A DNA stretch of 64,000 bases from Branchiostoma lanceolatum (lineage: Eukaryota; Chordata; Leptocardii; Amphioxiformes; Branchiostomatidae), in the NCBI RefSeq assembly GCF_035083965.1, contig NC_089740.1, forward strand, positions 7,995,552 through 8,059,551, read 5' to 3'. The translations under genes and the position numbers were made by a program. Under the pieces are notes generated by a model, which saw only the letters and a program-made list of their open reading frames with translations, was not told the DNA's origin and did no database searches. Of this stretch, positions 1-63,495 are shown one piece after another. Numbering within the stretch: the stretch's first letter is position 1; the number at the start of each line of letters is the position of its first letter.

Positions 1-423
1 ATTTTTTTGCGTGTGCGCATATTCAGGCGTGACCCCTACGTCTCTCCGTGGGACACCTTGCGGTTGCCGGGCTATTTTGGGGGCCGGCCGGTACCCCGAA
101 TCATTTTAACTCGGACTTTAAATGCTTACCTATAGGCATCCCTAACTCTGTCATCAGTGTTGGGAACATGTCCGCTTCTAAACTGCCCTGTTGTCTAGAC
201 GAAAAACGAACACGATCTACATAGAGGTAGTGTTCAAGAATAAACATTGAATGAAAAAAAAAACACAGCAAAAAACAATCTGAAGAAGCACGACATCAAA
301 AAGATGGCCCGGAACCGAACTGATTGGAGACGAAACTCGACCCAACGTTGATTAGAATAAATTATTTAGAAAGTATTTGATAAAGTATGACAAAATTCAG
401 TGATCTTTTCTCTTTATTGAAAG

Positions 424-3400
424 GGGGACGGCGGGTTGACAGTAAGGGAAGCGAAACATGACGACTACGAGGCCGTGATGAAGATGGCTCGACCGGACAC
501 CTTCCGTGACGGTTTCGACTACCTACCAGCCAGGTTTCACCAGTATGTGGATGATCCGGACGTTTTCATCATCATGGCAGAAAGTGGCGACAGCCTGGTA
601 AGTACGTGGGCATGATTTTATCTAGTGATACACAATTTTGTACTTTTGGGGGGGCTGGCCGGCGAGTTGAGATTAACAGGTCCAAAGACAGTGGATTGCT
701 TGCTTTCGCCCCACCATGGAATTGACCTCCTTCCGTGAAGGATCTTGGTGACATTTTTCGGTGTTGTTGCAAATAAATGAAAAGTGGATCATAGTCATAA
801 TGATTCGATACTAGCGTTCTACATTGAGAAAAAAGGGGGCGTTGTCACAGATAAGGGTAAATGTTTAACCGAACAAGTAGGACACTAAATGGAAATAATG
901 TATGCGATTAGTAATTATACACTGGTCCAGAACACTGCAATGTGGCAAGAATACACTACTAAAGATGACACGAAGCTTGTAAATCTCCCCAGAATAACGA
1001 TTATATTAGTTGTATTACGACCAATTTAAGTTGGTCTAGTGGGCCAGGACTAGCTTCATATGAGACCACATATACCTATTCTCCAAGCAAGGATTTCGGT
1101 TGTGTGGGAGGCAGACGTAAAAAAACCCGGCCACTACTACCCCACAAGACCGAAACCTCTGCTTGGAGAATAATATATACCAGTACAATTGATTTGATAT
1201 GAATCTTGAAAAGGAGGAGTTATCAGCAAACAATGAAGTGATCTGGTTCAATGGACAGTGAACACTGTGGTTATTGGTACACATGAATCACATGTTGTTT
1301 AGGTATATGATTTATATTTTCCAAACTTTTCCCATTTTCACCACAGTACACAAGTTAACCACCGAAAGCGGTTGATTCCACGACCGTTTAAGTCAACAAT
1401 CCACGGTATTTGGATATGACGTCACAGTCGCCCAAAAGTTTCAACATGGAGATTCTAAAAACGACAGAAAACAAGAGTTCCGCGACCTCATATCTCCAAA
1501 AACAATTCTATTTATGCAAATGACTTACATATCAACATGATATATGCTTAATCATTAACACCTTTATCTTACTTACACATGTTGCAATATTGAAAGTCCT
1601 ATAATTTTCCAATTTGATGAATTTCGGTGTTTTTGCATTAATTATGCAAATCAGGAATTTACGTCCATAATTGGTATCTGTTGATGCTCCACTTTCAATA
1701 AACTGCATATGTTAATGCATTTGAGTCTTATAATGGAAAACACTGCAACTGTAAATTATCCTCATTATCTATGCAAATTAAGTCAAAATTAGCATAATTT
1801 GCAATTCACTGTGTATATCTCTGTCTAAGCTAACCGCATGCTAAATATCATGGAAATCCGTTGTTCCTTTGTCCAGTTATTCCCCTTAGAAGATTTTCAC
1901 AATAACGCCCCTGCAGTTCCAGAGCAAGCTGCTAGGGGCCCAAACCAACACCATTTCTTAGTTACATCACAAGTTATCTGCCATTAAAAAATCAAGACTA
2001 TAGCACGTCAAGGTCAACAGATACAAAAATTGAAGTTCTGCTGCAGTACCAAGGTCACATACCAGGGGGCCCAAAATCGACCTTGAATTTCGGCTTCACA
2101 ACAACCGCCCACATGCCATATATCATTGTAATCCATCCAGAAGTTCTTGAGTTATGCTGACTACAATAGTCCGGAAACATAAACACACTGACAGACACAC
2201 AGACACGCCAAAAACAATTCCTCCATTTTTCATGGAGATAACAACAGATAAAAGACATTTGCAAACCATTAATTCAAAATGTGATAATTTGTTTTCCTGT
2301 CTCAGAATCAATCTCAAATCTCTTGGTGTTTATTTCTTACGAAAGACTTTCTAATGCAGGTAGGGATCGCCCTTTACATGTTTCACGACGACGACGAGGC
2401 TCTACTGTTGAAAACCGGTCGTCAAAACCCAAAATATGACGGCGGGGGTGCGTTTCGTCGTGTGAGTCAGTCCGTGCCGATGGTATACAAGGATTTCCTC
2501 CTCCAGCGATGTAAGCCAACGACCTTGTATCAAAGTGTCGTTGAAGGTCACCGGACGAACCTTCACAAATACCTGCAGAACTATGGGCTTTGGGGCAAGG
2601 ACAAGTGCAAGTTTGTAAGTACATCGCGCATTCTTTAACACCCTTCTTTGATATGCATTCATTTTGTTCTGCTTTAGTGGATTTCAAGGACATAGATTCT
2701 GACCAAATTTTATTGTTATGAGATACGCAATTCAGCTCCGAAGGCTGCGAAGTATTTTGATCGAATAAACCTCAGAACAAGACTGTATGGTCCATCAACA
2801 GCCCCGACGTACGGGACTACAGTAAGCCATTCTCGCTGCGTATTTGCTGGCCAGCCGTCAGTAGCCAATCACGTCGCTGCCTACGGCCAAGATGCAACAT
2901 GATTGGCTGAAAACTTTCCCTTTGACAACAGGGATCTGATTGGCTGACGGATGATCAGTTGTTAACTCAGCGAAACGACACGCCAGGGTCGTTGATTGAA
3001 AGTGTGCATCAACGAGACCTCGTCCCCTATCCGTGTATTTTTTGTTTTGTTTCTCTCAACATGAGGACGATAGACCTGTATCACGTTATGACTTGTGTAC
3101 TGCGTAACTGTGTTACTATATTTAATGTCCTTTCCTTTTCAGGATACCATGTACTTTCAGTCTGACGTGTCTGCCATCCAAAGTAGTCTGGCGTCGAGCA
3201 ACACGACCAACCTTCCACCGCTCACCCCCTACCAGCCTCCCGACCTCCACCGCCTCCTGCCGCCCGCCTTCTCGGCCGCCGTCCTGTCTGAAGGCCGTGT
3301 GTTTGTTGACTGGGAACCGTACAAACTTTCTGAGTCCAACATGAAGAAGTTTGTAGAAGCGGGCTGCTATATTCTTGTCGACTCGACCGAACCGGCCGCT

Positions 3401-3712
3401 AAGAGTTTTAGTTTCGGCGGGAGTTACATGACTCCCCGAGGCAGGGTGTATCACATAGACATACACTGTAAGGACGAGGCTTTATGTAAGGCTCATATCA
3501 TAAACCAAGTGAAGAACGCCTGTAGTCAGTATAGAGGCATGATAACCTTCTGTATTATGGTGATAGACCAGGCTTTGAAGGAAACAGTCGTGAAATATTG
3601 TGTAGAAAGTCTGACACTGAGTCACCTGCCCCACGATCACACCTATACTCTGTATGAAACAGATCTCACCACCGTGGCTAAAGCTGTTCTTGGAAACAAA
3701 GCTAAGTACTAG
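424..3712 (+). CDS. NAT16/histidine N-acetyltransferase-like protein, copy 1 (5' exon outside window)
   Basis: Exons: 424-597 (58 codons), 2360-2614 (85 codons), 3143-3712 (189 codons plus stop). All have good AG and GT(A)AGT sites and every junction is in phase 0. The ATG exon should lie left of the window, by comparison with copy 2. The protein of about 333 residues resembles the GNAT-fold NAT16/HISAT family: an N-terminal segment with DYEAVMKM and DYLPARFHQY, then an acyl-CoA-loop region, then a long C-terminal half ending in KAKY. Known NAT16 relatives acetylate amino acids such as histidine in the cytosol; the substrate here is not determinable. The usual Q/RxxGxG/A loop is replaced by NPKYDGGGAFRR at about residues 82-93. 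No in-frame stop or frameshift is present, so the copy looks functional if its first exon exists. The family call is from memory of the motif layout. Confidence 0.75.
1069..1180. repeat. Foldback (hairpin) element in NAT16-like intron, copy 1
   Basis: Two arms of about 40 bp are inverted relative to each other. The left arm contains TATTCTCCAAGCA and the right arm GCTTGGAGAATAATATA, separated by a short spacer. The same hairpin, better preserved, is at 8244-8340, so it was present before the locus duplicated. The arm core TCTCCAAGCAGA recurs in the foldback at 14611-14800, and its complement at one end of the one at 57105-57285. Confidence 0.75.
1457..2270 (+). repeat. Interspersed repeat present only in NAT16-like copy 1
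   Basis: Between the conserved flanks this stretch is replaced in copy 2 by a LINE fragment (8615-9528). It is AT-rich with repeated ATGCAAAT-like words. Its right part (about 1840-2220) has the layout AATCCATCCAGAAG, GAGTTATGCTG, then ACACACAGACACGCC. The same words recur at 36395-36560 and, inverted, at 23754-23975. No coding capacity is visible. It is probably a non-autonomous element. Confidence 0.55.
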
Positions 3713-4402
3713 GCAGCAAGCACTGATGATGTGGTCGAAAAGACGAAAACTTGTTCATGATAAAGTCAGACGTTAACAAATCACACAGTTGATTTACAAC
3801 ATTTCTTTTCGTCTGTCACTGTTACATTTCTATAGCGACATAGTTATATTGATTTCTTGTCTGGGTATGAAGTGGGGAGTGATGGGAATTCCAGTAGCAT
3901 AACTAGGATGCTATGTATGCCAGTAAGTTTAACCCTTGTGCTGCTGGCTTTCCAGGGCCACTGCTTAAGTGCCTAGACATCTTTGAAACAAAGGGTCCTA
4001 GTTTGCATTGCTCATTTTTAGCTACCTCGCCGTATAACAACCACACGGGTGCAACATATATGCATTCTTGAAATACCATCGATTCGACAATTGCCAGGGC
4101 TAGCATGCAGAACGAACATGTGTAAACTAATACTTATCGGGCTCAGTAGCACTCGGACTACGGCCTAAACTGCGTAAATAGGCTCCTTCCTAACAATCGT
4201 CCAGTGACTCCCCCAGTCTCTTCACGACAAGAAATCCTGACTAGCCTCTAGGATAGAGCTCTTATTGACTTGACAAAGACTAGAGCTGTACAGTCGAACA
4301 TTTTGGTAAGTCCAATTTGTGTGGTGGAAATTATGGTTCAAACTTGTCCCAGAATGACTTGTACAAGCACAGATGAACTTTCAAGCTCAGAGCTCTTGTT
4401 GT

Positions 4403-6100
4403 TTTATGCACAACACCACAGCTTTCTTATGTTACAACCACTTCGTTTGTTATGTTTAGCCATACCTAGTATGGCTCAACATATTGTTTTTGTTCATGTT
4501 CTTCTTCTCCTGCCAAATCTTCAAATGGATTCAACTCCGCCATTTTTTAACCAACCGACCTGAAATTTGGCATGGAGGTAAAGAAAGCAAATACCCTCAG
4601 GTGATTTTAAAATTGCTTTGAAACAGCCCTTAAAATCATTTTTATGGAGGTTTTTTGGGGCATTTTTAGGCAATTTTTATATTTTTGGCTCCTGTGGCCT
4701 GGTTTTACAAGCAAATGACCTGACATTCGGTACAAGGGTGCCTTGAACATGTCCCTACAGGATTTCAATCACAATTCTGGTGTACATCACTTCAGAATGC
4801 TTCATTTTGGGGACTTTTGGACCCATTTTCAGACCAAAAACAGGTCAAAAGTGGTATCCACGTTCCATGTTCTATTTGCTGCTGGCCAAGGAATCCATGT
4901 TCTATCTAAGGATCCCTGCGTTCCATTTGCTACTGGCCAAAGAACACTGTTCTATTTAGGTCACCTGAGGTCATATTGCAGGAACACACGCAAGCCTTTG
5001 CAGTAAGAAGCTCTTGGGGTCTCGCAGAACTTGTAGAGAGAGTTTTTGTACGGGTGATTTTGGAACAGTCCATTTATGCATCAGGAGGGAGATTGTCGAA
5101 GTATAATGCTCTCGCAAATGTTGCCTTTCTACATGCAGTTAATATTTCGATTTGCCCAGGTGTTATTTTGGGACAGCCCACTTCTTGCATGGGGAGGAGT
5201 ATGGCTAAACATGCTGTATTTGCTCAGGGGCAAATGACGGCCTTTCTAGTTTCAATTTAATCTGTTTATGCAAACAACCTTCCCTCGTCACAAATCGAAT
5301 ATTCCGAAAAACAAACCTAAAAAAAAGTAATGCTAATGAAACAAATTACTGGCGAAGACTTGCTCAGCTGTTGTCAAAACAGCTAATTTTAAGACAGATT
5401 TTGTCTTGATAGATATGTTCTTATTAAACACGAACCTTTCTATACCGGCTTAGACGTTCTAGTTATCAATTCCGTGAAAACGGAGGTATTGTAGTCACTT
5501 GGTGTGTTTGCTTGTGTGTCTAGGTGTGTGTGCCCGCAATTATATGAATACCAATATCGCAGAGAGGCATGCGGCAACATGTAACTAGTAAGAGTGGTTT
5601 GGGTCATTTGTACGGATGGCAAACCATATTGTCACATCTTGATATAAACATCGTTTGCCATCGTGAATCCGTTCTGCTTCGATACCATCTAATTCTGTAC
5701 TTGGCTAATACGAGAGAGAAACTTTGATTTGCGATCGCGATCACATTTACAATCAACGCACTACGGAGTTGAAAAATGAATTGTTCCCTTTACCGTAGTA
5801 CAGACAGACTTGTGTACAACACTAAACTATAGTAGAACATTTTCTTTGGCCGGCGGAAGTAAGCAACTTGTCCAATATTGTGACGTGCAATATGTCATTC
5901 AATTACATAAAAAAAAGCTTAAGCGTTGCGCCTTAGACAATTGTTGTGCCTGGGACGCATTTGGACCTTGAGCTCAGCTTCCCTGCCGAAGCGCCCGAAA
6001 GTCGGTAGGTGGCGTTGTGCGGTCTTGTATTGCGCAACACCTCTTCGTAAGATACTGATTCGCGGATGGTGACCTCCTGACCTCTATCGGCTTGTTGCGT
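4403..6100. other. Single-copy intergenic DNA, no gene seen
   Basis: This lies between the two duplicated units. Short internally repeated phrases are visible around 4870-4960 (TTCCATTTGCTACTGGCC and variants) and around 5040-5200 (GGAACAGTCCA / GGGACAGCCCA). No exon with matching splice sites or long conserved frame was found. It probably holds the promoter of NAT16-like copy 2 near its right end. Confidence 0.4.
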
Positions 6101-6252: not shown

Positions 6253-9200
6253 ATGGTAAGTGAAGGTTTGCCAAACATTTTCTCTTTACAAAGCCACCAG
6301 ATATTTGCTGTTACTTAACACAGAATTTTGGAAACCTGGTCAGGTCGATTAAATCTCTTTTTTGTTTTATTATCTTTTTCAGTGCATTATTTGTATCCTT
6401 TTTTAGATTGTTTATCATCCTTGACTGCTTCACAGTTGAGCCTCCTGGCTCCAATTAGTTGGTAACTACTAATGAGACCCCTGTTCGAATCCGGGAAGGG
6501 TATCCTTATTGGAGCCGCACCGTCTTTCGGAAGAGACATAAATGGGGTCCCGTGTTCGAGGAGGTGCCACGAGCAGGTTACAACAGCCTCATTACTCAGA
6601 TGGGTTCCTACTGGCTGTAATAATGCAACCAGCAGAACATTAACATTGCTACGATCGTATATATGGTTCATGGGTCGGGCACCAGGCTGCGTAGATGAGC
6701 TTGTTCCGAGACAAAAGTGCTGACATTTCCCACGATCATTTATCTGTTGTTGTTTTCGCGACGGTCTCAGGGAGCGAGTACATTTACTAGTATACTATTG
6801 TGTTCTCTCTACAAGAGTTCCAAATATTGGATAGGAATTCTTCCCGCACTCCACAGGAATGCATACTGTGGAATACCCAGTCGAGAAAGTGTGTCACCCC
6901 CCTCCCCCTTTGCGTAATGAAAATCCCCGGGACAGTAAACTAGGTCACATGCGTCAAAAATAGTTACTCAAGCAACTGGATAAAATTTTGAAACAGTCAG
7001 ACGTTTCAGACAGCATATCCGCCATCTTTCGTCAGTGACTAAGGAAAGATCTGGCAGAACCAGGTTTTATACTAAAACTTTGAAGGTCACATACGTTCAG
7101 TTATAAAAAAGGGCCCCGCCGGGTAGTTCACGGGATTTTTTTTGCATATTCAGGCGTGACCCCTGCGTCTCTCCGTGGGACACCTTGCGGTTGCCGGGCT
7201 ATTTTGGGGGCCGGCCGGTACCCCGAATCATTTTAACTCGGACTTTAAATGCTTACCTATAGGCATTCCCTAACTCTGTCATCAGCCTAAAGCTGTGTTG
7301 GGAACCTGACCGCTTCTAAACTGCCCTGTTGTCTAGACGAAAAAGGAACACGATCTACATAGAGGTAGTGTTCAAGAATAAACATTGAATGAAAAAAAAA
7401 AACACAGCAAAAAACAATCTGAAGATGCACGACATCAAAAAATGGCCCGGAACCGAACTGATTGGAGACGAAAGTTACGCAACTGAGACGCAGAGACCCA
7501 AACGCAGGCCACTCGACCCAACGTTGAGGAGAATCAAGTATCCAGAAAGTATTTGATAAAGTATGACAAAATTCAGTGATCTTTTCTCTTTATTGAAAGG
7601 GGGACGGCGGGTTGACAGTAAGGGAAGCGAAACATGACGACTACGAGGCCGTCATGAAGATGGCTCGACCAGACACCTTCCGTGACGGTTTCGACTACCT
7701 ACCAGCCAGGTTTCACCAGTATGTGGATGATCCGGACGTTTTCATCATCATGGCAGAAAGTGGCGACAGCCTGGTAAGTACGTGGGCATTATTTTATCTA
7801 GTGATACACAATTTTGCACTTCTGGGGGCTGGCCGGCGAGTTGAGATTAACAGGTCCAAAGACAGTGGATTGCTTGCTTTCGCCCCACCATGGAATTGAC
7901 CTCCTTCCGTGAAGGTTCTTTTCGGTGTTGTTGCAAATAAATGAAAAGTGGAGCATAACCATAATGATTCAATTCTAGCGTTCTAGATTGAGAGAAAAGG
8001 GGGCGTTGTCACAGATAAGCGTAAATGTTTAACCGAACAACGGACAATTAGGACACTAAATGGAAATAATGTATGTGATTAGTAATTTTACATTGGTCCA
8101 GAACACTGCAATGTGGCAAGAATACACTACTAAAGATGACATAAAGTTTCTAAATCTCCTGGCCCGGAATAACGATTGTATCGGTTGAATCACGACCAAT
8201 TTAAGTTGGTTTAGTGGGCCAGGACTAGCTTCATATGAGGCCATATATACCTATTCTCCAAGCAGAGGTTTCGGTCGAGTGGGAGGCAGACGTAAAAAAC
8301 CCCACACGACCGAAACCTCTGCTTGGAGAATAATATATACCAGTACATTTGATCTGATTTGAATCTTAAAAAGGGGGAGTTGTCAGCAAACAATGAAGTG
8401 ATCTGGTTCAACGGAGAGTGAACACTGTGGTTATCGGTGCACATGAATCATATGTTGTTTAGGTATATGATTTATATTTCCAAACTTTTCACATTTCCAC
8501 CACAGTACACAAGTTAACCACCCAAAGCGGTTGATTCCACGACCGTGGAAGTCAACAATCCACGGTTTTTGGATATGACGTCACAGTCGCCCAAAAGTTT
8601 CAACATGGAGATCCTATATTACGTGTACCAAAATCTGCTTGCAGCCTAGCTGCAAGGGCGGAATTAGGAAGATACCCCATACAAGTGGAGGCTTCGCTAA
8701 ATGCCGTCAAATATTTTCTTAGACTTCGCCAAAATGTGCCAGCCGACAGTTTTCAAGCAGATGCTTTCTACTGTCAGTTAGATCTAGACGAATCTGGTGT
8801 TAAATGTTGGGCGACAGGAATACGTAAGTCTTTAGAGGAGAGCGGGTTTGCTTTCTTATGGCATCTTCCAATTTCATACAATACAAATACGTTACAAATT
8901 GTTAGTTCCATTGGCCAGCGGATAAAGACATTTACTTCCAAACGTTTCTAAAAGAAATACATAACGACAACAAAGGTGGGGCTGCCAAAAACAAGTTAAG
9001 ATCATATAGATTATTCAAAGCAACTTATAATGAAGAAAAATATCTAAGTAATGCAAATATGAGGGTCAGGAATACAGTCACAAGACTAAGGATCAGCTGC
9101 CACAAACTACACATTGAAACGGGAAGACATACCCGCACTCCTCTAGAACAACGATTATGTAAACATTGTAATTTGAATAGAATAGAAAACGAATGTCATT

Positions 9201-10995
9201 TTGTGGTAGAATGTGGATTATATACCAAAGAAAGAAATGAACTGTATAAGCTTGTAGAAAACTTATTTCCCTACTTCACACATTTAAGCACTGTACAAAA
9301 ATTCATATTCCTAATGCGACTAGACAAACCTCCCATTGAAAAACACGTCTGTTCTTTTATATCTACTATAACCGAAAAGCGAGGAGAAGTAGAATTTATC
9401 TAATGATAGTCATATTCTTTTTGTCCCGTTAACTGTACTTGTTGTTTTGTTTTGTTGTGACCTGTACTTAGCCAAGTGTGGCAGAAATGTGCAATAAAGG
9501 TCTTCATTCAATTCAATTAAAAAAAAACATTGACTGAAAATGTGATAATCTGTTTTACTGTCTCAAAACGTTTCATCAGTCAAAATCTCTTGGTGTTTAT
9601 CTCTTACGAAAGAATTTTTAATGCAGGTAGGGATGTTCCTTTACATGTTTCACGACGATGGCGAGGCTCTACTGGGGAAAACCGGTCGTCAAAACCCAAA
9701 ATATGACGACGGGGGTGCGTTTCGTCGTGTGAGTCAGTCCATTCCGATGGTATTCAAAGATTTCCTCCTCCAGCGATGTAAGCCAACGACCTTGTATCAA
9801 AGTGTCGTTGAAGGTCACCGGACGAATCTTCGCAAATACCTGCAGTACTTTGGGCTTAGGGGCAAGGACAAGTGCAAGTTTGTAAGTACATCGTGCATTT
9901 TTTAACACCCGTCTTTAATATGCATTCATTTTGTTCTGCTTTAGAGGATTTTAAGGACAATGATTCTGACCAATTTTGATTGCTATGAGATACGCAATTC
10001 AGCTCCAAAGGCTGCAAACGTATTTTGATCGAATAAACCTCAGAACAAGACTGTATGGTCCATCAACAGCCCCGGCGTACGGGACTACAGTTAGCCTTTC
10101 TCGCTGCGTATCAAGTTGCTGGCTAGCCGTTAGAAGCCAATCACGTCGCTGCCTACGGCTAAGATGCAACATGATTGGCTGAAAACTTTCCTTTTAACAA
10201 CAGGAGGAGAAGTATCTGATTGGCTGACGGATGACTAGTTGTTAACTCAGCGAAACGACACGCCAGGGTTGTTGATTGAAAGTGTGCATCAACGAGACCT
10301 TGTCCCCTATCCGTGTATTTTTTGTTTTGTTTCTCTCAACATGGGGACGATAGACCTGTATCACGTTATAACTTGTGTACTGTGTAACTGTGTTACTATA
10401 TTTAATGTCCTTTCCTTTTCAGCATGCCATGTACTTTCAGTCTGACGTGTCTGCCATCCAGTGTAGTCTGGCATCAAGCAACACGACCTACCTTCTACCG
10501 CTCATCACCCCCTACCAGCCTCCCGACCTCCACCGCCTGCTGCCGCCCGCCTTCTCGGCCGCCGTCCTGGTTGAAGACCGACTGTTTGTTGACTGGGAAC
10601 CGTACAAACTCTCTCAGTCCAACATGAAGAAGTTTGTAGAAGCGGGCTGCTACATCCTTGTCGACCCGACCGAACCGGCCGCTAAGAGTCTTAGTTTCGG
10701 CGGGAGTTACATGACTCCCCGAGGCAGGGTGTATCACATAGACATACACTGTAAGGACGAGGCTTTATGCAAGGCTCATATCATAAACCACGTGAAGAAC
10801 GCATGTAGCCATTATAGAGGCATGATAACCTTCTGTATCATGGTGATAGACCAGGCTTTGAAGGAAACCGTCGTGAAATATTGTGTAGAAAATCTGACGC
10901 TGAGTCACCTGCCCCACGATCACATCTATACTCTGTATGAAACAGATCTCACCACCATGGCTAATGCTGCTCTTAGAAAAAAAGCTAAGTACTAG
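6253..10995 (+). CDS. NAT16/histidine N-acetyltransferase-like protein, copy 2 (complete)
   Basis: Exons: 6253-6255 (ATG only, after a 5' UTR of unknown start), 7600-7773, 9627-9881, 10423-10995; total 334 aa. The first exon ends ATG|gtaagt. Joining it to 7600 gives MGDGGLTVREAKHDDYEAV, which supplies a start codon where exon 2 has none. Exon 2 encodes the same residues as in copy 1. Exon 3 and exon 4 differ by scattered substitutions, for example HAMYF for DTMYF at the start of exon 4 and ALRKKAKY for VLGNKAKY at the end. The GNAT acyl-CoA region is again NPKYDDGGAFRR. Intron 2 carries a LINE fragment and a foldback. An AATAAA lies 250 bp after the stop. All junctions are phase 0. Both copies look intact, so this is probably a recent paralogue pair. 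Confidence 0.78.
6425..6720 (+). mobile_element. tRNA-derived SINE
   Basis: A tRNA-like head with A-box-like TTAGTTGGTAACTAC and B-box-like GTTCGAATCCGG is followed by an unrelated body containing GCCGCACCGTCTTTCGG. This is the layout of a Pol III-transcribed SINE. It lies in intron 1 of NAT16-like copy 2. The ends are approximate. Confidence 0.6.
6960..7080 (+). repeat. Half of a foldback-type interspersed repeat
   Basis: The stretch begins GTTACTCAAGCAACTGGATA and includes TTTCGTCAGTGACT and AGATCTGGCAGAACCAGG. Similar words occur in the foldback at 46048-46252 and, in reverse orientation, around 58430-58515, so this is a dispersed family. Confidence 0.5.
8244..8340. repeat. Foldback element in NAT16-like intron, copy 2
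   Basis: Arms of about 40 bp at 8244-8283 and 8301-8340 are near-perfect inverted repeats. The left arm holds TTCTCCAAGCAGAGGTTTCG and the right arm its complement, with a 17 bp loop. It is the better-preserved counterpart of 1069-1180. Confidence 0.85.
8615..9528 (+). mobile_element. 5'-truncated LINE, 3' end with decayed ORF2 C-terminus and poly(A)
   Basis: Two frames together give the C-terminal end of a LINE polyprotein. One holds RAELGRYPIQVEASLNAVK and the other (9059-9403) a cysteine/histidine knuckle, CKHCNLNRIENECHF. A one-base deletion near 8915 separates them, so the copy is dead. The 3' UTR ends in GCAATAAAGGTCTTCATTC and a short A-run at about 9519-9528. It replaces the sequence found at the same place in NAT16-like copy 1, so it arrived after the duplication or removed that sequence. 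A related 3' tail is at 41342-41403. Confidence 0.85.
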
Positions 10996-11245
10996 GCAGC
11001 AAGCACTGATGATGTGGTCAAAAAGACGAAAACTTGTTCATGATAAAGTCAAACGTTAACAAATCACACAGTTGATTTTACAACATTTCTTTTCGACTGT
11101 CGCTGTTACATTTCTTTAGCGACATATTTATATTGGTTTCTTGTCTGCGTATGAAGTGGGGAGTGATGGGAACTCCAGTAGCATAACTAGAATGGTATGT
11201 ATGTCAGTAAGTTTAACCCTTGTCCTGCTGGCTTTCCAGAGCAGA

Positions 11246-11251
11246 AATAAA
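11246..11251 (+). promoter_or_regulatory. Poly(A) signal AATAAA, NAT16-like copy 2 only
   Basis: AATAAA stands 251 bp after the copy 2 stop codon. In copy 1 the aligned sequence has a 13 bp gap that removes exactly this hexamer, and I saw no other AATAAA close behind the copy 1 stop. Confidence 0.5.
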
Positions 11252-11464
11252 CTCCCACTGCTTAAGTGCCTAGACATCTTTGAAACAAAGGGTACTATAG
11301 CTAGTTTGATATTGCTCATGTTTAGCTAACTCGCCGTACAACAACCACGCGGGTGCAACATACGCATCATTGAAATACCCTCGGTTCGACAATTGCCAGG
11401 GCTAGCATACAGAACAAACATGTGTAAACTAATACTTATCGGGCTCAGCAGGACTAGGACTAAG

Positions 11465-12022
11465 GTCTCATTCTTGTATTACTCCGAGTGGGTACCCTAA
11501 AAAAATCCGTGGGTCCAAAAATAAACGGCTGCATGAACGTGTGTTTGTATCCGTGGGAAATTATCCGGTTTTTAGACGGCCCGACTGATTTCAAGCGTCA
11601 AACTGATGAAATCTTGTTTGTAGCTGAAAAAATTAGCAGGTAAAGTTTGGCAGCCGCGCGCGAGGTCGGACGTGTACACTCCGGCCGCGGCATTGTGTGC
11701 GATGCGGTCATGCGCTTACAGCTGGAAAATACCTTTTTGGGGTGTAGCTAAGTGCAGTTTGTAATTGCTATAAAAAGAGATTGTGTGTAGTGAAAATGTT
11801 GGCAATTCGTTTTTTTACATAATCTAGGGTAAATGTTCTCAACGAAGCTGGTGTGTTACGCCTAATGGCGGTTGTACCGGCTCTATAGATACAGAAATAC
11901 AGCTGTAGAAACATAGAATGAATAACATTGGCACATTTTCTATAGCTTCATTGCGAACGAGCCCATGTAAAACACGTTTTATAACATGGAATCCTATGGG
12001 GCGAAAAACTCATGAATGAGAC
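11465..12022. mobile_element. MITE-like DNA element with 12 bp TIRs, in 3' flank of NAT16-like copy 2
   Basis: The element is absent from the aligned position in copy 1. It begins GTCTCATTCTTG and ends CATGAATGAGAC, which are inverted repeats with one mismatch. It has no ORF. Inside it, at 11842-11902, lies the 3' tail of the LINE family described at 31494-33560, so the LINE tail was nested in it or captured by it. No clear target duplication was found. Confidence 0.7.
11842..11902 (+). mobile_element. Short 3' tail of the 31,494-33,560 LINE family
   Basis: GAAGCTGGTGTGTTACGCCT, a GGCGGTT block and a terminal ATAGATACAG match the extreme 3' end of the larger LINE copy. It is nested inside the TIR element at 11465-12022. 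Confidence 0.7.
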
Positions 12023-12274
12023 ATTTAAGACCTAAACTGCGCAAATAGGCTATCTCCTTCCTAACAATCGTCCAGTGACTCCGAGTCCCTTCACGACAAG
12101 AAATCCTGACTAGCCTCTAGGATAGAGCTCTTGTTGACTTGACAAAGACTGTTCGGTCGAAAGTTTTGGTAAGTCCACAGTTTGTGTAGTGGAAATTATA
12201 GTTCAAACCTGTCCCAGAATGACTTGTACCAACACAGATAAACTTTCAAGCTCAGAGCTTTTGTTGTTTTGGGA

Positions 12275-13311: not shown

Positions 13312-16300
13312 ATGCAGCTAGGGGTCAGCGTGGTGGTGGGGTTTCTAGCGGTGTTGCTGCTGTGTTCCTTCGGGGAGGGGCAGTTCCCGTGCCCGAGGAG
13401 TTTCTACCGGTGTGCCGACGGTTACTGCTTGGAGAGGACGCGGCTGTGTGACGGGGTGGCCCACTGTCGGGACCGATCGGACGAGAGAGACTGCCCCAGT
13501 ATGTAAACCGTCTCATTTCCTACATTGAAATCTTCTCTAGAAAAAGACTCCGTTTCTACACCATGATCTGTACCAACATAGCCTAGGAAGCCAGACTGTT
13601 TCCAGGCTGATCTGTTTATGCCCGGGAAACAGCCTGACTTCCAGGCTATACCAGTATGTAATCATCTCGTTTCCTGCATTTGGAATCTTCTCTAGAAAAA
13701 GACTCGTGTCATTTTCTGTATCGTAATCTACAACAGTATTAGCCTGGAAGCCAGGCTGTTTCCAGGACCTCATGGCCCTAGCCAGTAGCTGAGGAGCTGG
13801 CCTGTTTATACCCCGGAAACAGTCTGGCTTCCAGACTGACAAGCCAGACTGAGATTATCCCAGTATGTACTCATCTTATGGTTCATCTTATATCCTGTAT
13901 CGAAATCCTGTCTAGTATGGACGCCTCTCCGACGGTTTCCTCAGTCTAGTCTGATCTTCTTAGTAAGGACTAATGTCGTTTTCTGCATCATAATCCGTAT
14001 TAGAATTGACATAGAAGCCAGGCTGTTTCCAGATACTAGCTTGAATGCAAGACCCCGAATCTCCAAAATATAGATACTTTAGAGTTTGGGGGTCTGGCAT
14101 CCAGGCCATACCTACACAGGCTACCTCTTCGGCACCAGAGCCAACATGCCCTCAAGGCACTGAACCTGAGGTGTCGGCCTGTGTAGGCCCTGGAAACGCC
14201 GAGCAAAAAATAACAATGGATGAAAACATGTAGAAAGTCACAAAATGTAGTAGCTCATCGATTTTGTGATTTTGTAACATATTGTTCTTCCACTAGTTTC
14301 AGTTGATATTCTATAAGCGAAAAGGGTGACATAAGACCATCATTTTATTTTTTATTATTAATATGTCTGACTCCTTCTTCATATTTTGCTGTTATACACT
14401 TGAGTTTGGCTATGGCCATGTCTTCCTTTTGTAGTTTTACGTTATAAAAAGAGAAATCGAAGAATGCGTTAGTTCCCACCGCAGCTTGAAGCCCGCAGTA
14501 CAGACCTGAAGTGTTACGCCGCGGGGATGTTTACCGATATATGTCATCCGTCATCACATGGCTGAACCCCAGATCTATCCAAGGCGCTAGTCGCACTACC
14601 GTACTTTGTCGTACTCTCCAAGCAGATGTTCGTTTCCGCCTTGTTTTTGTCTTTTTAAGGCATTTCTATCGGGCTTTCTATTATGTCCCGTTTCTTTATG
14701 TCCGTACAAACGGTTTGGTGACATATAGAAAACGGGACAAAATAGAAAGCCCCACAAAAAAAACTAAAAAGTCGGAGCCGAACATCTACTTGGAGAGTAC
14801 ATGTAGCTTTATCGCAAGTCACAAAAGCTGCCATATATAGTGTAGATCTGGCTGTCAGCGGAGGATTAACCCACTCAAACCCAATATTTTTTTGTCGCAT
14901 ACCAGGATTGGCACGCTTCGATCGCGTAAATTCAATAGTAACAGCAGGTTGAGTAGCCTGGAATCCAGACTGTTTCCAGGGCCTCGGCACAGGCCAGCTT
15001 CTCGGCTCTAGGGCCAACATGTCCTTAGCCTGGATGGCAGACTGTATCCAGGGCCTACACAGGGCAATTCCTCGGCTTCAAGGACAACTAGACTGACCAT
15101 CTGTGTCTGACAAGTGAAGCGATGGCCGCTGCTGTGTTTTGAATTAAAACGTACAGTCATCAGTGACTGTCGGGCGCGTGTGTTTACATGTGATCAAGTC
15201 AAACTACAGGATTGATTTGTAGCATGTTACATCTTATTCTGATTACCAGTCCAGAACGTATCCCGATTAGGATATGTCATTAATCACGCCGTCAGCGGTG
15301 CTGCGCAGGCGTGATTCTCTTGACCCCAAAATTTGACCCCAAATCCAAGACGGCGGACGGACGATGGAACGCCGATTTGAGTACACAAATATTATGCTGC
15401 AAACAAGAAGTACTGGCGCAGTCACGATGCGTCGAACCGAGCTATTATATGTGTTACCGTGATCTCTAAAAGTTGAACAATCCCGGGTAGGTCATTCGAG
15501 AAGTCAAAAGGTAGTTTGAAATGAGATTTGTCCCGTCAAAGTTGACCTACTTGTTGAGCTTTTCTGAGAAAAGCTACGGCCCTCCGACTTACCTTTCTCG
15601 CAAAATTATCTGCCAGGTTAATCGACGGGATGAACGATTCCTGCATTGTTGACATGAAGTGGAAATTCTCCAGTTCTTACTAGCATAACAACGATATAGT
15701 GATTTTTGCGAGTTTTTCACGGGCGGACGTGAGTCTCTGATCTGCTTTCTCGGGGAGTGGGAACGCTACACTGTCATGTATAATTTTTACGCCGTAAGTT
15801 ACTAGATTTAGTTACCATGGTGCTGAAGCTGAAAATACATGTACTATTGATATGATGTCGCAAAATTACAAATGAAAACTACGGCGTTCTTCAAATACGT
15901 GAAGCTATTTCCTATGGACGTGAGCGGTTTCGCGCCCCCTCCCCACCCCCACGAGAACAGCTGATATCGTGACATCGCCCACTTAGAAAACATGTACAAT
16001 TTTTTAAACATAAATATTAAATTATTATGTCTGAAACCCATGTGGAAAGAGTGTTTATAAAAACATTGCGTATTGCAACTAGAAGGATTTTTCTCCAATA
16101 GAACCGGTGCGCTATCGACCCAACTTCTATAGAAAAACATATGAAGCAGACAACACGGCCTTACCACACACAAAAGGAAAGCAGAGGAACTTCAGGAAGG
16201 GGAGAGCGGCTTGCACCCAGACAACTAAAAATCTACCCGTGGAAAGGGTAGTGATAGTCTCTAGAAACACATGTGACAACACAGCAGGTTATGTGCCTCA

Positions 16301-19300
16301 AAGTAAAATATATTTATGTACATGAACCGAACATAATGTTACTTGTACCTAGTTTTGAAGTGTTGTTTACCTAACTGCTTATAACATAAAGTTTGTTTTC
16401 CATTTATCACTGTAGGTCATTTTGCAAATAAACATAGTGTCTTTACATTGCTTCCTTTCTGTTGTTCATTCACTGATACATTGTATACGTGACACATATG
16501 TACTGTATACACATACTAGAGTATGTATAGAAACATGCAGTAGTATATAGAAAAATCAATCCACTTGCTTGTTGTGTTTGCAGCTGTAAGTTCAGCTGTA
16601 TATACTATATCTACTACAAGATTGCACATTTTGACAAAGCACAAGATTAATACAGAAATATTCAAACATCAAAGTTGACATTCATTGTCGAATTTGAACT
16701 GAGTTCTGAAGAAAGTGTCCGCCAATGAAATATACAGAACATACCATGTCATCAATGCATTGCTACATATCTACATGTATATGACAACAGTATTTGACAA
16801 AATACTGCTCCGCTTACTTGTGTTGGCACAAAATTCAGCCGTCTACTAACAACTAACAACTTACAACCTAAAAAAAACACATGATAGATAGATGTATGTA
16901 TAAGACAAAGATTTTATGTATTTTTATGTTTATTTTTAAGTACAAGATTAGTATCGCAAACACTGAAACATCTTCTGCCCCCTCCTGTTGGTCTGTTTGT
17001 CAGCGCTGTAGTTGTGATTGACTGTGGTTTTGTCGTAGCAGATTTGACATGAGTCACTGTGTGCTACAAACAGGTAAGGCGTTGTGAATGTTTGGAAGGT
17101 ATCTTTGTTGGGAGCTTTTGTGTACCTGTCAAATTTACACCTGCATTTGTGGCAGACATATGGTGAATGAATAGGCGGTACATCTGAATTGAGATCTATT
17201 CGAAATATGTTTGAAAATCTCTCATTAAACGACAAACACAGATACTCTCTATCTCCAACACCATGTCCACACAGGTGACACTTTGTTCTCAGCAGCTGTA
17301 TTTGGCCATCCTCCAGTTTTTCATCTACAAATACAATGACATAGGCAAAATGAATAAATATCAACAGTGTTGAATTGTAGGTACTATTACTACTATTACA
17401 ACACCGAGCAAACAATCCATCAATCATTACCAAAAAACAATGTACATTGTATATCACTCAGATAATCATACATGATCGTGCACTTTTTGACTCAGTCATG
17501 ATACTGTATGATCAACTGGTGAAAGATCCAGGACTAACAACATCAAAAAATACAGAAAAACCTAACTATAATATGCATAGAAATTGGATGTAAGCTACAT
17601 GTATACTAATATTCAAACAAAAGTGCATCTATACTAGGGCTAAATATGAATTGGCATGACTTGAAGTGACAATTGGTGAAAAATCATGGAAGCAAATAAT
17701 GGGAGTTTACACAATACTTGACAATAATTGGATTAGCATAGTAAGGACAATTGACAAGATAATATGGACCCGAAAATACACATTACATGGAACTAGTATT
17801 CAATTGTTGATAAGATGTGGACATCAGGAAGAACATTTTATTACATTCTGTATGACATTGTACATCATCTTTTGATTCGAAGCTGTGTGTTATAAAGGCT
17901 TATAACATGTAGGTACTAGTATAGATACAACAACCCAAAATTGACTGCGTCCAGAAAATTATGCCATCATTCCGATATCTTTTTTGGAATGACAACAAAC
18001 GCAAAAACTATTCAAGACCTTCACATCTGCGTCAAACTTCGAACTACGGCGTTGTCAAAAAAATACGTAAAGCTATAGATTTCATGTGCACGTGAGCGGT
18101 TTCGCGCCCCCCTCCCCACCCCCGCTTAAACAGCTGACATCGTGACATCGCCGACTTAAAAAACATGTACAATTTTTCTACAGTAAAAGTATTGACTAAA
18201 ACCCAGATGGAAGGATGGCAGAGGGTCTATAGAATTAATAGAAATTATTCATTGTTATGAAAAACATTGCATTTTGCAACGAGAAGGATTTTTCACCGAG
18301 AGAAACGACGCGCCCGTGACCCAACTCCAATGAAAAAACATACGGGCCGGGCGCCTCTAGGCCCGAAACCTCCCAACTTCAAAAACATGTACATTTTTTC
18401 CAGTGCATTTTTCTACCGAACAAAATGGCGCAGACGACAGAAAAACACACAGACGATGAAGGAAAATTGCTAAGAACTACCACCAATTCCATGTAAACAT
18501 ACAGTTAGGCCAGCAAAATAACCCCCAAAATGTGTAAATTGTAGTCTTACCTGACGTTTCGCCCGCCATCACCGACAGAATAAGCGATTTTGGAGCGGTT
18601 TGTCCGATCAAAACACACGTGCAAACCTGTCCTTTTCGGCTGGAAGAGTCTATGGAGTCTATGACGTATATTTGACCTCTGAACTGGGTTATACCACTGA
18701 GATATAGGGGGTAGAAGAAGAAAATCTCTAGAAAAAGAGCAAAGATTCTGACTGAGACAGGCTTTGGCGGTAAAATGACGTCATAGCCGCGCGGGCGATC
18801 TGATTGGCTGAATGCTTGCATCACAGAGTATCCAATTTGGGATACGTTCTGGACTGATTACGACGAAGTTGTGTTTTATAAATACATGATTAATTGATAG
18901 CAATTATCAAAGAATTTTACTGAGTCACCATTTTTTTTGCGTTTCGGCGCATGCGCGCCGGAACGCATTGTCCTGGCTTTTACCTTCAAGCAAGGAGGAA
19001 GGAACCAGGGAAGCTTGGTTCAACACTGTGTCGCACACAACAAGACCTTATATGGCAATACGTTCTCAAATCCTTGTATAGCCGTTGCCTTATATGGCAA
19101 GAGAGCACGAAAATGCAGGCAGGCTAGATTTGCATGTGACACAGGACGGCGACCGCATGTAACTGCTACAACTGTTCGGAAATATCATTGCATTGTGGTT
19201 TCGGACTTTGATATCCTGAAAAATGACCATATTACATCTATTCCACAAGATTGCAGAAGAAAAAAAATGATTTCGTCAAGAAAACGACCAAAAATCGGCA

Positions 19301-31400: not shown

Positions 31401-34400
31401 ATTGCCATTGGTAGACAATGCATCACCCTCTTTGCCACATTTAATGCCTCAGCTCTGTGCCCACACACCTACTTCTAACAAATAGAATCAGGCGTGCATA
31501 TCCCTAGTAAAACAACATCAAGCAGATACAACCTGCCTTGGTTCAACAGAAACCTAAGAAGGCATTGTCGTAAGAAACAACGTCTTTACAACAAAGCTAA
31601 GAGAACAGGGCGAGAGGAAGACATGAACAAATACAAGAGAGTTAAGAAGGGCGTACAGAAAAGCATAAGAGCAGCACATTCAAAATATGTGGCAGACATA
31701 CTGGGGGAAGCCATAATTGACAAACCCAAAACATTCTGGTCATACATAAAAGGCCTAAGAAGAGACCTTGTCGGCGTAGCCCCTCTAAAGATTGGTAATT
31801 CCATTGTCAGTGATAGCGAGAAAAAAGCAGAGGCACTCAGTTCACAGTTTAAAAGTGTGTTCACAGAGGAAGACACAACAAACATGCCAACTCTCGGACA
31901 GCCCTGTACCCCTCCCATGGAACACATAGTGATTTCCCCTAATGGTGTCGAAAAAATGCTCCAAGGGCTCAATCCATCTAAAGCATCTGGTCCAGACCAA
32001 ATACCTCCTTGGTTCCTCAAAATGACAGCCACCGAAATAGCACCTGTGTTAACCAATATTTTCCAACACTCGTTAGACACAGGAGAAATTCCCAAAGACT
32101 GGAGGGATGCAAATATATGTGCCATTTTTAAAAAGGGAGATAGAGCTGTCCCCGGCAACTACCGACCTGTATCACTGACCTGTATATCCTGCAAACTACT
32201 TGAACACATTATCCATAGTCATGTCATGAAACACTTAGAAAGTTTCAACATATTGACTGACTACCAACATGGATTCAGAGCAAAGCGATCCACAGAAACA
32301 CAGCTTATATTGACAGCTCACGACATAGCTGGCGCACTGAACAGTAAAAAACAGGTAGATCTAGCAATTCTTGATTTACTAAAGCTTTCGATAAAGTCCC
32401 ACATAGCAGACTCATCACTAAACTAGAGCACTACGGAATTCAAGGCACCACACTAAATTGGTTGAAGGCTTTCTTGACCAATAGGGAACAGACGGTAGTG
32501 GTAGAAGGCAAGGCCTCAGCTCCAGTTAGAGTTGCGTCAGGCGTACCACAGGGAACTGTTCTGGGACCGTTACTCTTCCTCCTGTACATAAATGACTTAC
32601 CAGACCAGCTTGATTCAAATGTTAGGTTATTTGCCGATGACTGCCTGTTATATATAGAGTTGTCCACACAGAGTGATTCACAGCTTTTGCAAGAAGATTT
32701 GAACACACTCGAAGAATGGCAAAGCAGATGGCTAATGCAGTTTAATCCGGAAAAATGTTACATCATGCATATAACAAACAAACGAAACCCAATTGTAACC
32801 ACCTACCAGTTCTGTGGACAGGCTCTAGCAACAGCAAAGAGCCACCCGTACCTAGGCGTTACATTAACAACGGGGCTAAAGTGGAACACCCATATCAACA
32901 AAGTAACAACTAAGGCTAAACAGACATTGGGAGTGATCAAACGTAATTTGTGGGCATGCCCAGCAAAGGTAAAATCCCTTGCATACACGTCTCTAGTAAG
33001 ACCAAACCTTGAATATGCTGCAACAGTTTGGGATCCATACACAAAGAAGGATATAGATAAACTCGAGAGGGTGCAGAACCAATCTGCCAGATTCTGCACG
33101 AACAACTATGAAAGGGGCGCCAGCGTAACAAAAATGAAAGCAGACCTGCAATGGATGTCACTTGAGGACAGGAGAACAATGTCCAGACTTTGCATGATGT
33201 ACAAGATGACTAATAAACTTGTGGACGTACCGACTGATAAGTATCTAATGCCAGCTCAGAAGAGGACCAGAAATAGTCATGCTTTTAAGTACCAGAGTTA
33301 TCAGCCAAGGATTGACGTGTTCAAAAATTCGTATTTCCCGAGAACCATAGTAGAATGGAACTCGTTGTCATCAAGTACTGTAGGAGCTTCATCACTAAGT
33401 AGCTTTAAAGAACGGTTGCAGTCAGATATGCAAAGACTAGGTGTAACAGACCGTTCGGTGTAATATGACCAGCTGCTGCCGCGCCGCGTGCCTGCGAAGC
33501 TGGTGTGTTACGCCTGATGGCGGTTATACCGGCTATATAGATACAGATACAGATACAGGCGTTTAATGGATGTAGAACCTGGCTAGTTTGCACCCTACCA
33601 AGTCGCCATGTGATCCTGATTACGGCGACTTCAGCCTTGTAAAGTTTACAAGTAGCAGGGAATACCAGACTGCCGCTTCGCACGGCATGTACTTGCTCCA
33701 TATCTATGTATCTAGGCCAATTATATAATATGTATGTAGCGCTTCAGTCATGAGAGATCTCATCATTTCTGACGTAAACTACTACGATGTTTCCTGTGCA
33801 TTTTCAGTATCAGAATGAAGCAACGGTAAAGGGATTTAATCTACAGTAATCAGGCCATATCTACAGAAAATTATTTTTTTGCTTTAAAGGAGGGATTTTT
33901 TTGTAAATAAATGGATCAACATCTTTCCTGACGTAACACCTATTTCAAACATAAGTGTTTTTCAAAATTATTTTACCAAGTTAGGCCCCTACATGAGGGA
34001 CAAATTACTAGCTGCAACAGGCCAAAACATACCACTTGGCAGAATGAACCTACTATTTGGTGCAGTTTGGTCCAGAGGTGTAGTCTGGGATGTTACACCG
34101 GCTTGGCGCCCACCCTAGTCGTGTCATCCAGCTTGTAGGCGGAACATTCGAACCAGACTGCGTTCCCACGGTAACCAGTTCTAACAAATGTACCACTAGG
34201 TTGAGGCGCGCTACGTACAAGACTGATTTATCAGCCTTCTACGATCTCACAGAATGTCACAGAGACTGACATTCGCCTGATAAAAGAAATGTTGATGTAC
34301 ATGTCTAATTCTCTTTTTACAAATCGTTGGTCTTCTTCTGTGTTCCTAGTTTTTCCTCTTGCATGTGTGTGTCGTGCGAGTTGTTGAAGTTCATCAAATT

Positions 34401-53850: not shown

Positions 53851-54859
53851 ATTTGTGAGTTAGCGTGTGTGTGTTTAATAGTGTATGTGTGTTTTTATGT
53901 CTCTGTGTGAATGTATTTAGAGAGAAAAAGATAGAGGCAAAGAGAGCGAGAGGCGACAAACGTCCGATCAAGCTGGAGATGATTGGATGCATGGATACAT
54001 AGCTGAATTGATTAATACATGAATGACTGAATGAATGAATGGATGACTGAATGAATGAATGACTGACTGACTGACTGACTAAATGCATAAAAGAGCAGGA
54101 CCAACCGTTTGCACTGACTCCGTTTCCATTCCTCGTCCTTCAGCTCCCAGGGGATGGTGACGTTCAGCAGCTCGGCAGGGGTCGCGTTCAGCCCCGAGAA
54201 CCTGGCCTGCGGCACCCGGCAGTGGAAGCCCGGCTCGAAGGCCATAAAGACGGTACCGAACACGTGAAAGGCATTGAAACCGATGGGCAGACAGACGAGG
54301 TAGAACACCCTCTTCTGCCACGGTCCGAATCCACCCAGGAAGTCCATAGCACGGTCGTAGTTCACTCTGACCTGTTCATAATATAACGTGTACGATCATG
54401 CATGGAGGTTAAAACACATGGCAAGATATGAACATTGTACCGTTACAATTGCTGAGACATAGAGTTTAGTTTGGAGTAGACTGGAGTCACGTTGAGTTTT
54501 TGTCGAGTTTGCACAAAAATGAAATTTTTCATATACTCCAAAACGTAATGAAGAACTTGTAATCATCGTTGAAAAATCAACTATTACAAAATTGGACTAC
54601 GAACGTCTTCTTATTAACCACTTATAACCATTAATAACCACTACTATTTCTTGACGGCACATCTAAATGAGAGCTACGCCTTCTAGCGGTATAGGTAGGA
54701 GGTGTTCCGACAAAAGCGTCCGATTGCAAAGATTGAAACTACGCCTTCTATCGGAATAGGTAGGAAGTGTTCACGAACCGGCACGTCGTCCTTGCCCTCG
54801 ACAGGCCGTCCGTTTTGGAACACCAGAGCTTCTTCGGCGGTGTTCTCGTTTTCAGCCAT
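48274..54859 (-). CDS. SLC22-family organic ion transporter, gene B (with duplicated exon 11)
   Basis: Exons (high to low): 54859-54779, 54371-54106, 53567-53426, 53065-52962, 52717-52563, 52386-52224, 51452-51314, 51014-50914, 50356-50222, 49825-49746, then either 49435-49327 (11a) or 49270-49162 (11b), and 48511-48274; 570 aa with either version. Exon phases equal gene A throughout; exon 3 is two codons shorter. Signatures: GGHAADRWGRKP, IPESPRW, FGRRW and AEIFPTVVR, as expected for an SLC22 plasma-membrane transporter. Introns 7 and 6 hold minisatellites. Genes A and B are closest in exons 8, 9 and 12 and in part of exon 2. Substrate unknown. An untranslated first exon is probable because an acceptor (tttcttaaag) lies 25 bp upstream of the ATG. 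Confidence 0.93.
48580..48860 (+). repeat. ~57 bp minisatellite in SLC22 B intron 11
   Basis: About five units contain CAGTCAAACCTGTAC, TGACCACCTCTACATAAGGA and CCACCTGGCCATTGATA. Related single phrases occur at 24500-24565 (+), and a related unit forms the array at 51728-52155. Confidence 0.9.
49162..49435 (-). other. Duplicated, probably mutually exclusive exons 11a and 11b of SLC22 B
   Basis: 11a (49435-49327) and 11b (49270-49162) are both 109 bp, both bounded by CAG acceptors and GTAAG|GTATA donors, in the same phase. They encode 37-residue versions of the helix 10-11 segment that differ at five places: K/N at about residue 469, S/T at 475, A/S at 477, V/I at 478 and V/I at 481. The intron between them is only 56 bp. 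Using both would shift the frame, because 109 is not a multiple of three. Gene A shows a single exon 11 with Lys; gene C also has a single one. Confidence 0.85.
51728..52155 (+). repeat. 46 bp minisatellite in SLC22 B intron 6
   Basis: About nine units contain TACTAGTGACCAACTCTG, TATAAGGACAATATGACA and GTCAAGCCTG, alternating between two sub-variants (GACAGTC and TACAATC). Confidence 0.93.
53120..53390 (+). mobile_element. SINE body, family of 40560-40850, in SLC22 B intron 3
   Basis: CATTGGGAAGGGAACTTAAC, TTCCTCACTCCACCGAGGTG and GGGCTTCGCCTTGTGATACC match the body of the other copies. The tRNA-like head is weak or missing. Confidence 0.6.
53660..53893 (+). repeat. (TG)n microsatellite in SLC22 B intron 2
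   Basis: An irregular TG-rich array lies in the intron homologous to the one carrying the CA/GA array in gene A. A short TGAA/TGAC array follows at 54019-54082, next to the exon 2 donor. Confidence 0.9.
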
Positions 54860-61134: not shown

Positions 61135-63495
61135 CTAAAGTCGGGCTGTTTCTCTCTCTTCGTCCACGATGCCGTCTTTCTTCCCGAAGTTCTCGCCGTC
61201 CGCGATGGTTGCCGTAAGGTCCATCCCCTTGGTCTCCGGCAGCAGCAGCGCCAGCAGGCCGGCGGCGATCGACGTCCCGCCGAAGATGACGTAAGGCATC
61301 GGCGTCCAATAGACGCCCAGTAGATCGATAAATGGCGCGATAATCCCGCCGACGCGAGCCATCATGGCGCCCATGCCCAGCCCGATTTGCCTGTAAAAAT
61401 ACACAATTTTACAGCACAATTATTCCTTGTAGTAACGGTAACATTTTACCAACTTTGAAAATAAAGATCAGACTTGCAATCTCGGTTCAAAACGATGAAT
61501 CTAAAGGTCCTGGGTTCTAGCAGGTTAACTTACTCGTATCTAGCTTTGCTTAGGGATGGGAGGTAATGCTTGACAGAAAGCTTTAAAGGAAAGTGATACA
61601 TCGAGCGTCAAAGGACCCTTTGTTGACAAAAGTAGGGTCCATTCCAGTATGGTCTTGTGCAGTTCGTACTTAACATACAAAACTGGTGTGTCTGGTCCAC
61701 CAGTTCTGTAATACAGACAAACAAACAAACAAAGAAAAACAAAAAGGCAACGACAAACAAACTTGAACTCCAAAGTTACCTGATGACGGTGGGGTAGAGC
61801 TCGGCAGTGAAGATGTAGACAATGGCGAAAGTGGCGGTGATGCAAAACTTCCCTATCATGGCCAGGGTGGTGGTCAGCCAGAACAGGTCTGTACGGTAGA
61901 CACATAGACATTAGTATCATGGTTTAACTCACTCACTCGCTCACACGCTCACTCGCTCGCTCGACACTAACGATTTAAAAACATTAAATCGTACAACATT
62001 GAAAAACACATTCGGAAATACATGTGCCCTATCTGAAAGCGTTCCTTGGTACACAGTGGAATACTGAATTTCAGTCTGCTGCGTTCACCATAACATGGTT
62101 GTACTTGATAAGTTTAAGATCGAAAATAGAAAAAAAAAGATAGTTGTTCACTTACGCTTTGGTACGAAGAAGGCGGAGGTACAAGCCAACCCTCCTATGA
62201 CCATTAGACTGGACAGAGACCAGCGTCTTCCAAACCTGACAAAAAACGGTAAGTTTAGAGATAATTTATTATTCTCTTAAACTCTAAGACTGAGTAAGAA
62301 AAACGGATGAATAGAGTATATTTCATCTCAATCAATTCAGAGGCTATTTCAACAGCACTAAAAGAAACAAAAAGGCTTTAGTTGCAGGTCCAATTTGTCG
62401 TGTAATAATGTCAATACATTTGATACCTAGTCATCGCAATAGTAACGTTTAGTGTTCTTACAGTCTCTGATTAGTTGGGCTGTATGTTACACTTTACCCA
62501 TTGCAAAAAGATAAATGGGCGCTGCTACATATATGGATGGATGGATGCTTTGGATATTAGGGCCCTGTCAAACTTGTGCGTATATTCAAGTGCACATGAC
62601 TCCCGCAAAAACTTTTTTTTGGTTTAAGTAAATTTTGCAGGGAGGAAGTTGTTTTCTACTTTTACCCACCGTTGAGCAGTCTAGTTATCAAACCAAAGAA
62701 ATTACTTCTTCGGCTGCAAACTTAACTTAACCAAAAACATGTTAATACGCAACTCATTCGGGTTTGTATGTACGCACAAGTGTGACAGGGGCTTAAGAAT
62801 TGAATTTATGGATGGATAGAAGCAGATAAATAAAGAAAATATCTCACTTGTCCAGGGTGTAGATGGAGATGAGGTACGCCGGGATCTCCACGAAACCGGA
62901 AATGGCGAAGTTCAGGTACAAGTTCCCGTGGAAGGCCGCCGCGTTCAGGGATATCCCATAATACACCATGCTGTTCACGGCCCTGGGATGGATAGAAGCG
63001 AATTGATGTGTTAGATTTATTCTAACTTGTAATCATATATAGTGTAGATGAAAAACAATTACTCATAGTTGAATACCATGAGATCAAAATGCGACATCAA
63101 TGATATAGTATTGTGAATATCTGGTAGTAGAACGTTCGCGAAGCAGTCAAAATTTTGCTAAACACAGGATTATCACGTCTATTTCCTAACAGTTTTCTAC
63201 AAGCATTTTAAGGAGTATAAACATGTATGCAAACAAACCATCGTACAAGTGTAACAACAAGACTTAGTGATCAAAATGCACACAGGGGTCCAGAGGCTAC
63301 GAAGCACGACTTCATATATTATAGATTAATGTCTTCATATGCATAGACAGGATTGTTTTACTACTTAAAATAAATAGAATCAACCAGGAACACTCACCAG
63401 TTGAAGAACAGGTTAAGAGTCCACTTGCGCAGGTTCGGTGTCCTGAACAGATCCACAAATGTGTAGAGGACTCTGTCCGAACCGACTTCCTCCTC
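61135..63495 (-). CDS. SLC22-family organic ion transporter, gene C (3' half; continues beyond right edge)
   Basis: Five exons in the window: 63495-63398, 62982-62848, 62235-62156, 61888-61780 and 61390-61135, equal to exons 8-12 of genes A and B with the same phases. Motifs: [29 protein letters not shown] and [10 protein letters not shown], then [15 protein letters not shown]. It ends with an acidic tail lengthened to DEERETARL. Exon 8 is one codon shorter than in A and B. It is more diverged than A and B are from each other. Exons 1-7 should lie right of the window. No stop or frameshift is seen. It belongs to the same plasma-membrane transporter family, substrate unknown. Confidence 0.9.

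Follow-up and report, generated by a model that had tools for sequence, protein, structure and literature searches.

The 3,610 bp unit at positions 15247-18856 of the window, the 64,000-nucleotide stretch of Branchiostoma lanceolatum DNA that was analysed, is a transposon whose sole recognisable gene encodes the N-terminal zinc region of RAG1. RAG1 is the recombinase of antibody genes, and it is held to be a Transib-like core fused to an N-terminal region whose source is disputed. The present element is clearly bounded, looks intact and has this N-terminal region alone, and it thereby offers a testable handle. We consider it probable that the unit is a non-autonomous cut-and-paste DNA transposon with a RAG1-N-like gene as cargo and with a non-RAG helper, likely hAT5-like, acting in trans.

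The unit has inverted ends and is flanked by a 5 bp direct duplication, ATTAC, which was read directly at 15242-15246 on the left and at 18857-18861 on the right. The outer 18 bp of the terminal inverted repeats (TIRs), CAGTCCAGAACGTATCCC, are perfect inverted copies of each other (15247-15264 and 18839-18856). Over 28 bp, i.e., from 15247 to 15274 for the left TIR on the plus strand and from 18829 to 18856 for the right TIR on the minus strand, 25 of the 28 bp are paired (89% complementary, 3 mismatches). Since the duplication lies at the outer edges of the repeats, the stretch in between appears to have been inserted as one unit. For comparison with the rest of the window, perfect inverted pairs with arms of 14 bp or more, no farther than 10 kb apart, were listed, low-complexity sequence being excluded. 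This gave 24 pairs, and the pair at 15247-18856 was the only one with a 5 bp flanking duplication; one other listed pair, the hairpin at 8252-8332, is flanked by a duplication of 9 bp. Forty dinucleotide shuffles of the window contained no 18 bp perfect inverted pair within 10 kb and none of 14 bp flanked by a 5 bp duplication; pairs of 12 bp with such a duplication occurred 0.125 times per shuffle, against 2 in the real window. The TIRs and target-site duplication (TSD) of the element exceed chance expectation. No further copy of the ends was found elsewhere in the window, whether the 18 bp were searched with at most 4 mismatches or the 28 bp with at most 7, and a tblastn search of the window gave no second copy of the encoded protein (best other match, E 0.12). 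As the element was seen as one copy in the window, we infer its mobility from one insertion.

The gene lies on the minus strand and consists of two exons with 131 codons, giving a product of 131 aa as judged from translation, GT/AG sites and frame. Exon 1 (18551-18569) starts with MAGETS, is followed by a GT donor, and has a G at both positions -3 and +4 of the ATG, which favours initiation. The putative GT-AG intron (17325-18550) would connect the two frames by a GTAAG donor and a TGTAG acceptor, and the 18551/17324 splice junction is predicted from the GT/AG sites and the frame. Exon 2 (16948-17324), preceded by the AG acceptor, includes the TAA stop codon and contains the match to Pfam family PF12560. 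A polyadenylation-like AATAAA starts at base 14 past the stop codon, and the stretch from the stop to the left end of the element contains no other AATAAA or ATTAAA. The undamaged frame, the GT-AG sites and the AATAAA suggest that the gene is functional now or was so recently. Taken alone, the exon-2 frame spans 169 codons from stop to stop, a length that 8 of 500 shuffled versions of the element also reach. The length of this open frame is modest evidence for a gene, and the profile match is the decisive evidence. A longer N-terminus in the frame that stays open to the right TIR (18480-18857) gave no Pfam match at E ≤0.01. AlphaFold2 modeling of the exon-2 part alone yielded a pLDDT of 33.9, and the model was therefore set aside. 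A preliminary description of this DNA had reported 18 bp perfect inverted termini with an ATTAC duplication and, between them, a two-exon minus-strand gene for a 131-residue product. The letters and the 40-shuffle control confirm the former, and the coordinates of the latter were exact, with the splice predicted from GT/AG sites and frame.

The 131-aa product matched PF12560 (RAG1_imp_bd, RAG1 importin binding) with an E-value of 8.9e-7 and 29.2 bits, above the curated cut-off of 23.3 bits of this family. One other Pfam match was obtained at E ≤1, a zinc ribbon below its cut-off (E 0.1). Shuffled copies of the protein (10 made, 5 scanned) gave no PF12560 match in the five scans, and a single unrelated match below cut-off appeared (NdhM, E 0.028). 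A phmmer search against solved structures placed RAG1 at the top (E 1.1e-4), with two more RAG1 sequences at E 1.9e-4, and the other six of the nine rows had E 0.36 or worse. The product aligns with RAG1 chain 21wb_A over 69 residues without gaps, 19 of which are identical (28%). Seven Cys/His residues are matched in this alignment, namely H59, C64, H65, C67, H95, C99 and C102 in product numbering, and the C2 and C3 zinc motifs of the product keep the RAG1 spacing. The names C1, C2, C3 and ZDD are taken from PMC7204232; the assignment of residues to C1, C2 and C3 was made in the present analysis. A candidate C1 motif, C22-x2-C25, precedes the FRID block, with an alignment score of 0.4 bits, which is not significant, and its distance to the FRID phenylalanine is 25 residues in the product versus 48 in 21wb_A. 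Judged from the sequence, the product is a homologue of the N-terminal zinc region of RAG1; its C2 and C3 were recognised from the alignment, and its C1 was assigned from motif order.

To find out what else the element encodes, it was scanned against Pfam in six frames, with stops read as X and matches accepted at E ≤1. PF12560 was the only credible domain, and the scan gave no DDE or other transposase core, RING, Kelch or hAT domain. One further match, to Cry1Ac_D5, stayed below its cut-off (E 0.066; 13.5 versus 25 bits) and was taken as chance. These searches bear on the preliminary description in three respects. It had placed the product in the block order of the RAG1 N-terminus, which agrees with the PF12560 and phmmer matches and, for the C2-C3 part, with the RAG1 spacing. 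It had proposed a profile comparison with the RAG1 N-terminal family, and the match is significant (29.2 versus 23.3 bits). Its statement that the element has no catalytic core and no RAG2-like frame holds for the six-frame Pfam scan, in which neither a core nor Kelch repeats appeared. Relatives of the protein were also sought in IMG/VR viral contigs (7 pattern stretches) and GTDB contigs (104), and none was confirmed; as these collections represent viruses, bacteria and archaea, the absence of relatives there says little about animals. The outer 17 bp of the TIR occurred in 7 stretches of viral contigs, none of which extended as a 28 bp end, and these hits were taken as chance. An Rfam search of the window at gathering thresholds gave no match.

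N-RAG-TP of Aplysia californica was reportedly described by Panchin and Moroz in 2008. Published descriptions present it as a transposon that encodes a RAG1-N-terminus-like protein (PMC8355894, PMC2996935, PMC13337447), so that the preliminary claim that such proteins are known from invertebrate mobile elements is borne out by these accounts. Compared by description only, N-RAG-TP and the present element are both mobile elements with a RAG1 N-terminus-like protein, and the present one has no core. Since N-RAG-TP is said to consist of RAG1 N-terminal-like sequence, this kind of element is already known. Among the listings and passages returned by a literature search, no described CAG-ended element with a RAG1 N-terminal domain was found.

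In the mechanism that we favour, a transposase would be supplied in trans. It would not be of the Transib, RAG or Chapaev kind, and most likely would be hAT5-like, cutting at the CAG ends and reinserting the unit so that 5 bp of the target are duplicated. The cargo product, which is a small zinc protein and has a basic tail, would most likely serve as a nucleic-acid- or protein-binding accessory factor. The strongest competitor, which we regard as a real but lesser possibility, assigns the cargo no role in transposition and sees it as a passenger of the Pack-TYPE kind, either a captured host gene or a piece taken from a RAG1L or Chapaev gene. Such a passenger would agree with the lack of any other coding trace in the element, and the intron of the cargo is consistent with a captured piece of genomic DNA. 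Non-autonomous DNA transposons that carry genes have been described, among them the Pack-TYPE elements of plants (PMC8903248). On the other hand, the gene appears complete, having a start, a stop and a polyadenylation-like signal of its own, and repeated independent capture explains less well why the sea-slug element, as described, has the same cargo; neither point is decisive.

CAG is typical of hAT ends, and the ends of the element begin with CAGTCCA next to the AT-rich TSD ATTAC. The hAT elements usually have an 8 bp TSD, but the hAT5 group is defined by 5 bp TSDs (PMC12730594). They are described with TIRs of 5-27 bp and a length below 4 kb, and one family has CAG(G/A)GG... ends (PMC3517528). 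The present element resembles hAT5 in its 5 bp TSD, its CAG ends, as in that one family (PMC3517528), and its size below 4 kb, whereas it differs in having neither a hAT transposase nor a remnant of one in the six-frame Pfam scan. A missing hAT transposase is expected for a non-autonomous element and only bars the label of an autonomous hAT5. By its anatomy only, a hAT5-type partner would fit the 5 bp TSD and CAG ends better than the alternatives; it is our best guess, and a weak one, as it was chosen on the length of the TSD and on three bases at the termini.

The RAG-like elements match the vehicle less closely. RAG1L of ProtoRAG and related transposons has the C1, C2 and C3 zinc motifs (PMC8289069, PMC7204232), and 5 bp TSDs are reported for ProtoRAG and Transib (PMC8289069, PMC8355894), as found here. 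However, ProtoRAG termini begin with CACTATG instead of CAGTCCA, and cleavage of ProtoRAG was shown to require the CAC triplet (PMC8289069). RAG signals, too, begin with CAC. The 5 bp TSDs of ProtoRAG are GC-biased, as was observed also for Transib and RAG (PMC8289069), and the present element is without the core, the ZDD/RING and RAG2L. Transib and ProtoRAG were rejected as the vehicle because their ends begin with CAC; the six-frame Pfam scan also gave neither a DDE core nor a RAG2-like partner. With CAG in place of CAC and an AT-rich TSD set against the GC-biased TSDs reported for ProtoRAG, the suggestion of a Transib-like partner is weakened, and a Transib/RAG-type partner is not supported. 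For the same reasons we find it very unlikely that the element is an internally deleted RAG-like transposon (ProtoRAG or TransibSU) that retained the RAG1L N-terminus, even though its TSD length and its homology to the RAG1 N-terminus would suit such an origin: besides the ends and the TSD composition, the six frames contain no trace of a RAG1 core or RAG2 Kelch repeats, and the frame is closed by a stop codon, with AATAAA after it, instead of breaking off at a deletion joint.

Chapaev and Chapaev3 transposases carry the Chapa domain, which is described as the N-terminal part of RAG1 (PMC4411706, PMC4079192), and in this they would resemble the cargo. In these elements the domain is fused to the transposase, whereas here it stands alone. 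Chapaev was rejected as the vehicle, since its termini are described as CAC...GTG with TSDs of 3-4 bp (PMC4079192), in contrast to CAG ends and a 5 bp TSD. Kapitonov and Koonin define Chapa as a truncated N-terminal part of RAG1 present in Chapaev and TransibSU transposases, and state that RING and Chapa are absent from all other transposable elements known (PMC4411706). If Chapa and the PF12560 domain are the same, the present element and N-RAG-TP, as described, contradict that wording. The same authors argue that Chapa and the core had been joined before Chapaev, Transib and RAG1 diverged from their common ancestor (PMC4411706), and a stand-alone copy may therefore be a later split-off.

Each TIR contains, within its 28 bp, a palindrome TATCC-N6-GGATA of which the arms are kept at both ends while the spacer bases differ. 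The pattern occurs in the window only in the two TIRs. The interior of the element (15275-18828) has no TATCC or GGATA, whereas 500 shuffles contained 5.2 on average and one of them had none. As the palindrome was sought after the ends had been seen, it is a lead only. That the TIRs and TSD merely enclose a resident host gene, or arose by coincidence, is very unlikely: the one copy seen in the window would accord with it, but an 18 bp perfect pair and a 5 bp duplication were absent from 40 shuffles, and the palindrome arms persist at both ends despite differing inner bases. Returning to the transposon with a helper in trans, a more far-reaching version of this reading, which we put forward as speculative and rather improbable, is that the RAG1 N-terminal module is a self-standing gene on non-RAG elements with CAG ends and a 5 bp TSD, perhaps hAT5-like. 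Its product would bind the TIR palindrome as an accessory protein, and the two halves of RAG1 would once have resided on unrelated mobile elements. Should the element have an autonomous partner of another superfamily, the RAG1 N-terminal half would have travelled on unrelated DNA.

The element also contains a direct repeat, detected as a BLASTN self-match and aligned with MAFFT, with both copies on the plus strand. Copy A (15877-16141) lies past the gene's 3' end and copy B (18042-18342) lies within the predicted intron, so that exon 2 is located between them. Their identity is 69.6% over 309 aligned columns.

Several other features were observed in the window. The hairpin at 8252-8332, whose perfect arms measure 26 bp and which lies between 9 bp duplications, is possibly a very small DNA transposon, and the stretches at 14611-14800 (73%) and 62557-62796 (69%) are self-complementary and MITE-like. 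A non-LTR reverse transcriptase (RVT_1, 31479-33460) is divided between two frames, with an overlap near 32.4 kb, and represents a retrotransposon with a probable frameshift. The regions 17-4405 and 7144-12270 form a tandem duplication whose pieces are about 88-91% identical; a frame matching Hisat_C (acetyltransferase) lies in both copies, at 3092-3709 and 10372-10992. The minus strand of 39791-64000 contains repeated blocks; within them, 54015-54395 resembles SLC22 transporters of known structure (PDB, E 6.6e-9), which points to transporter genes arranged in tandem.
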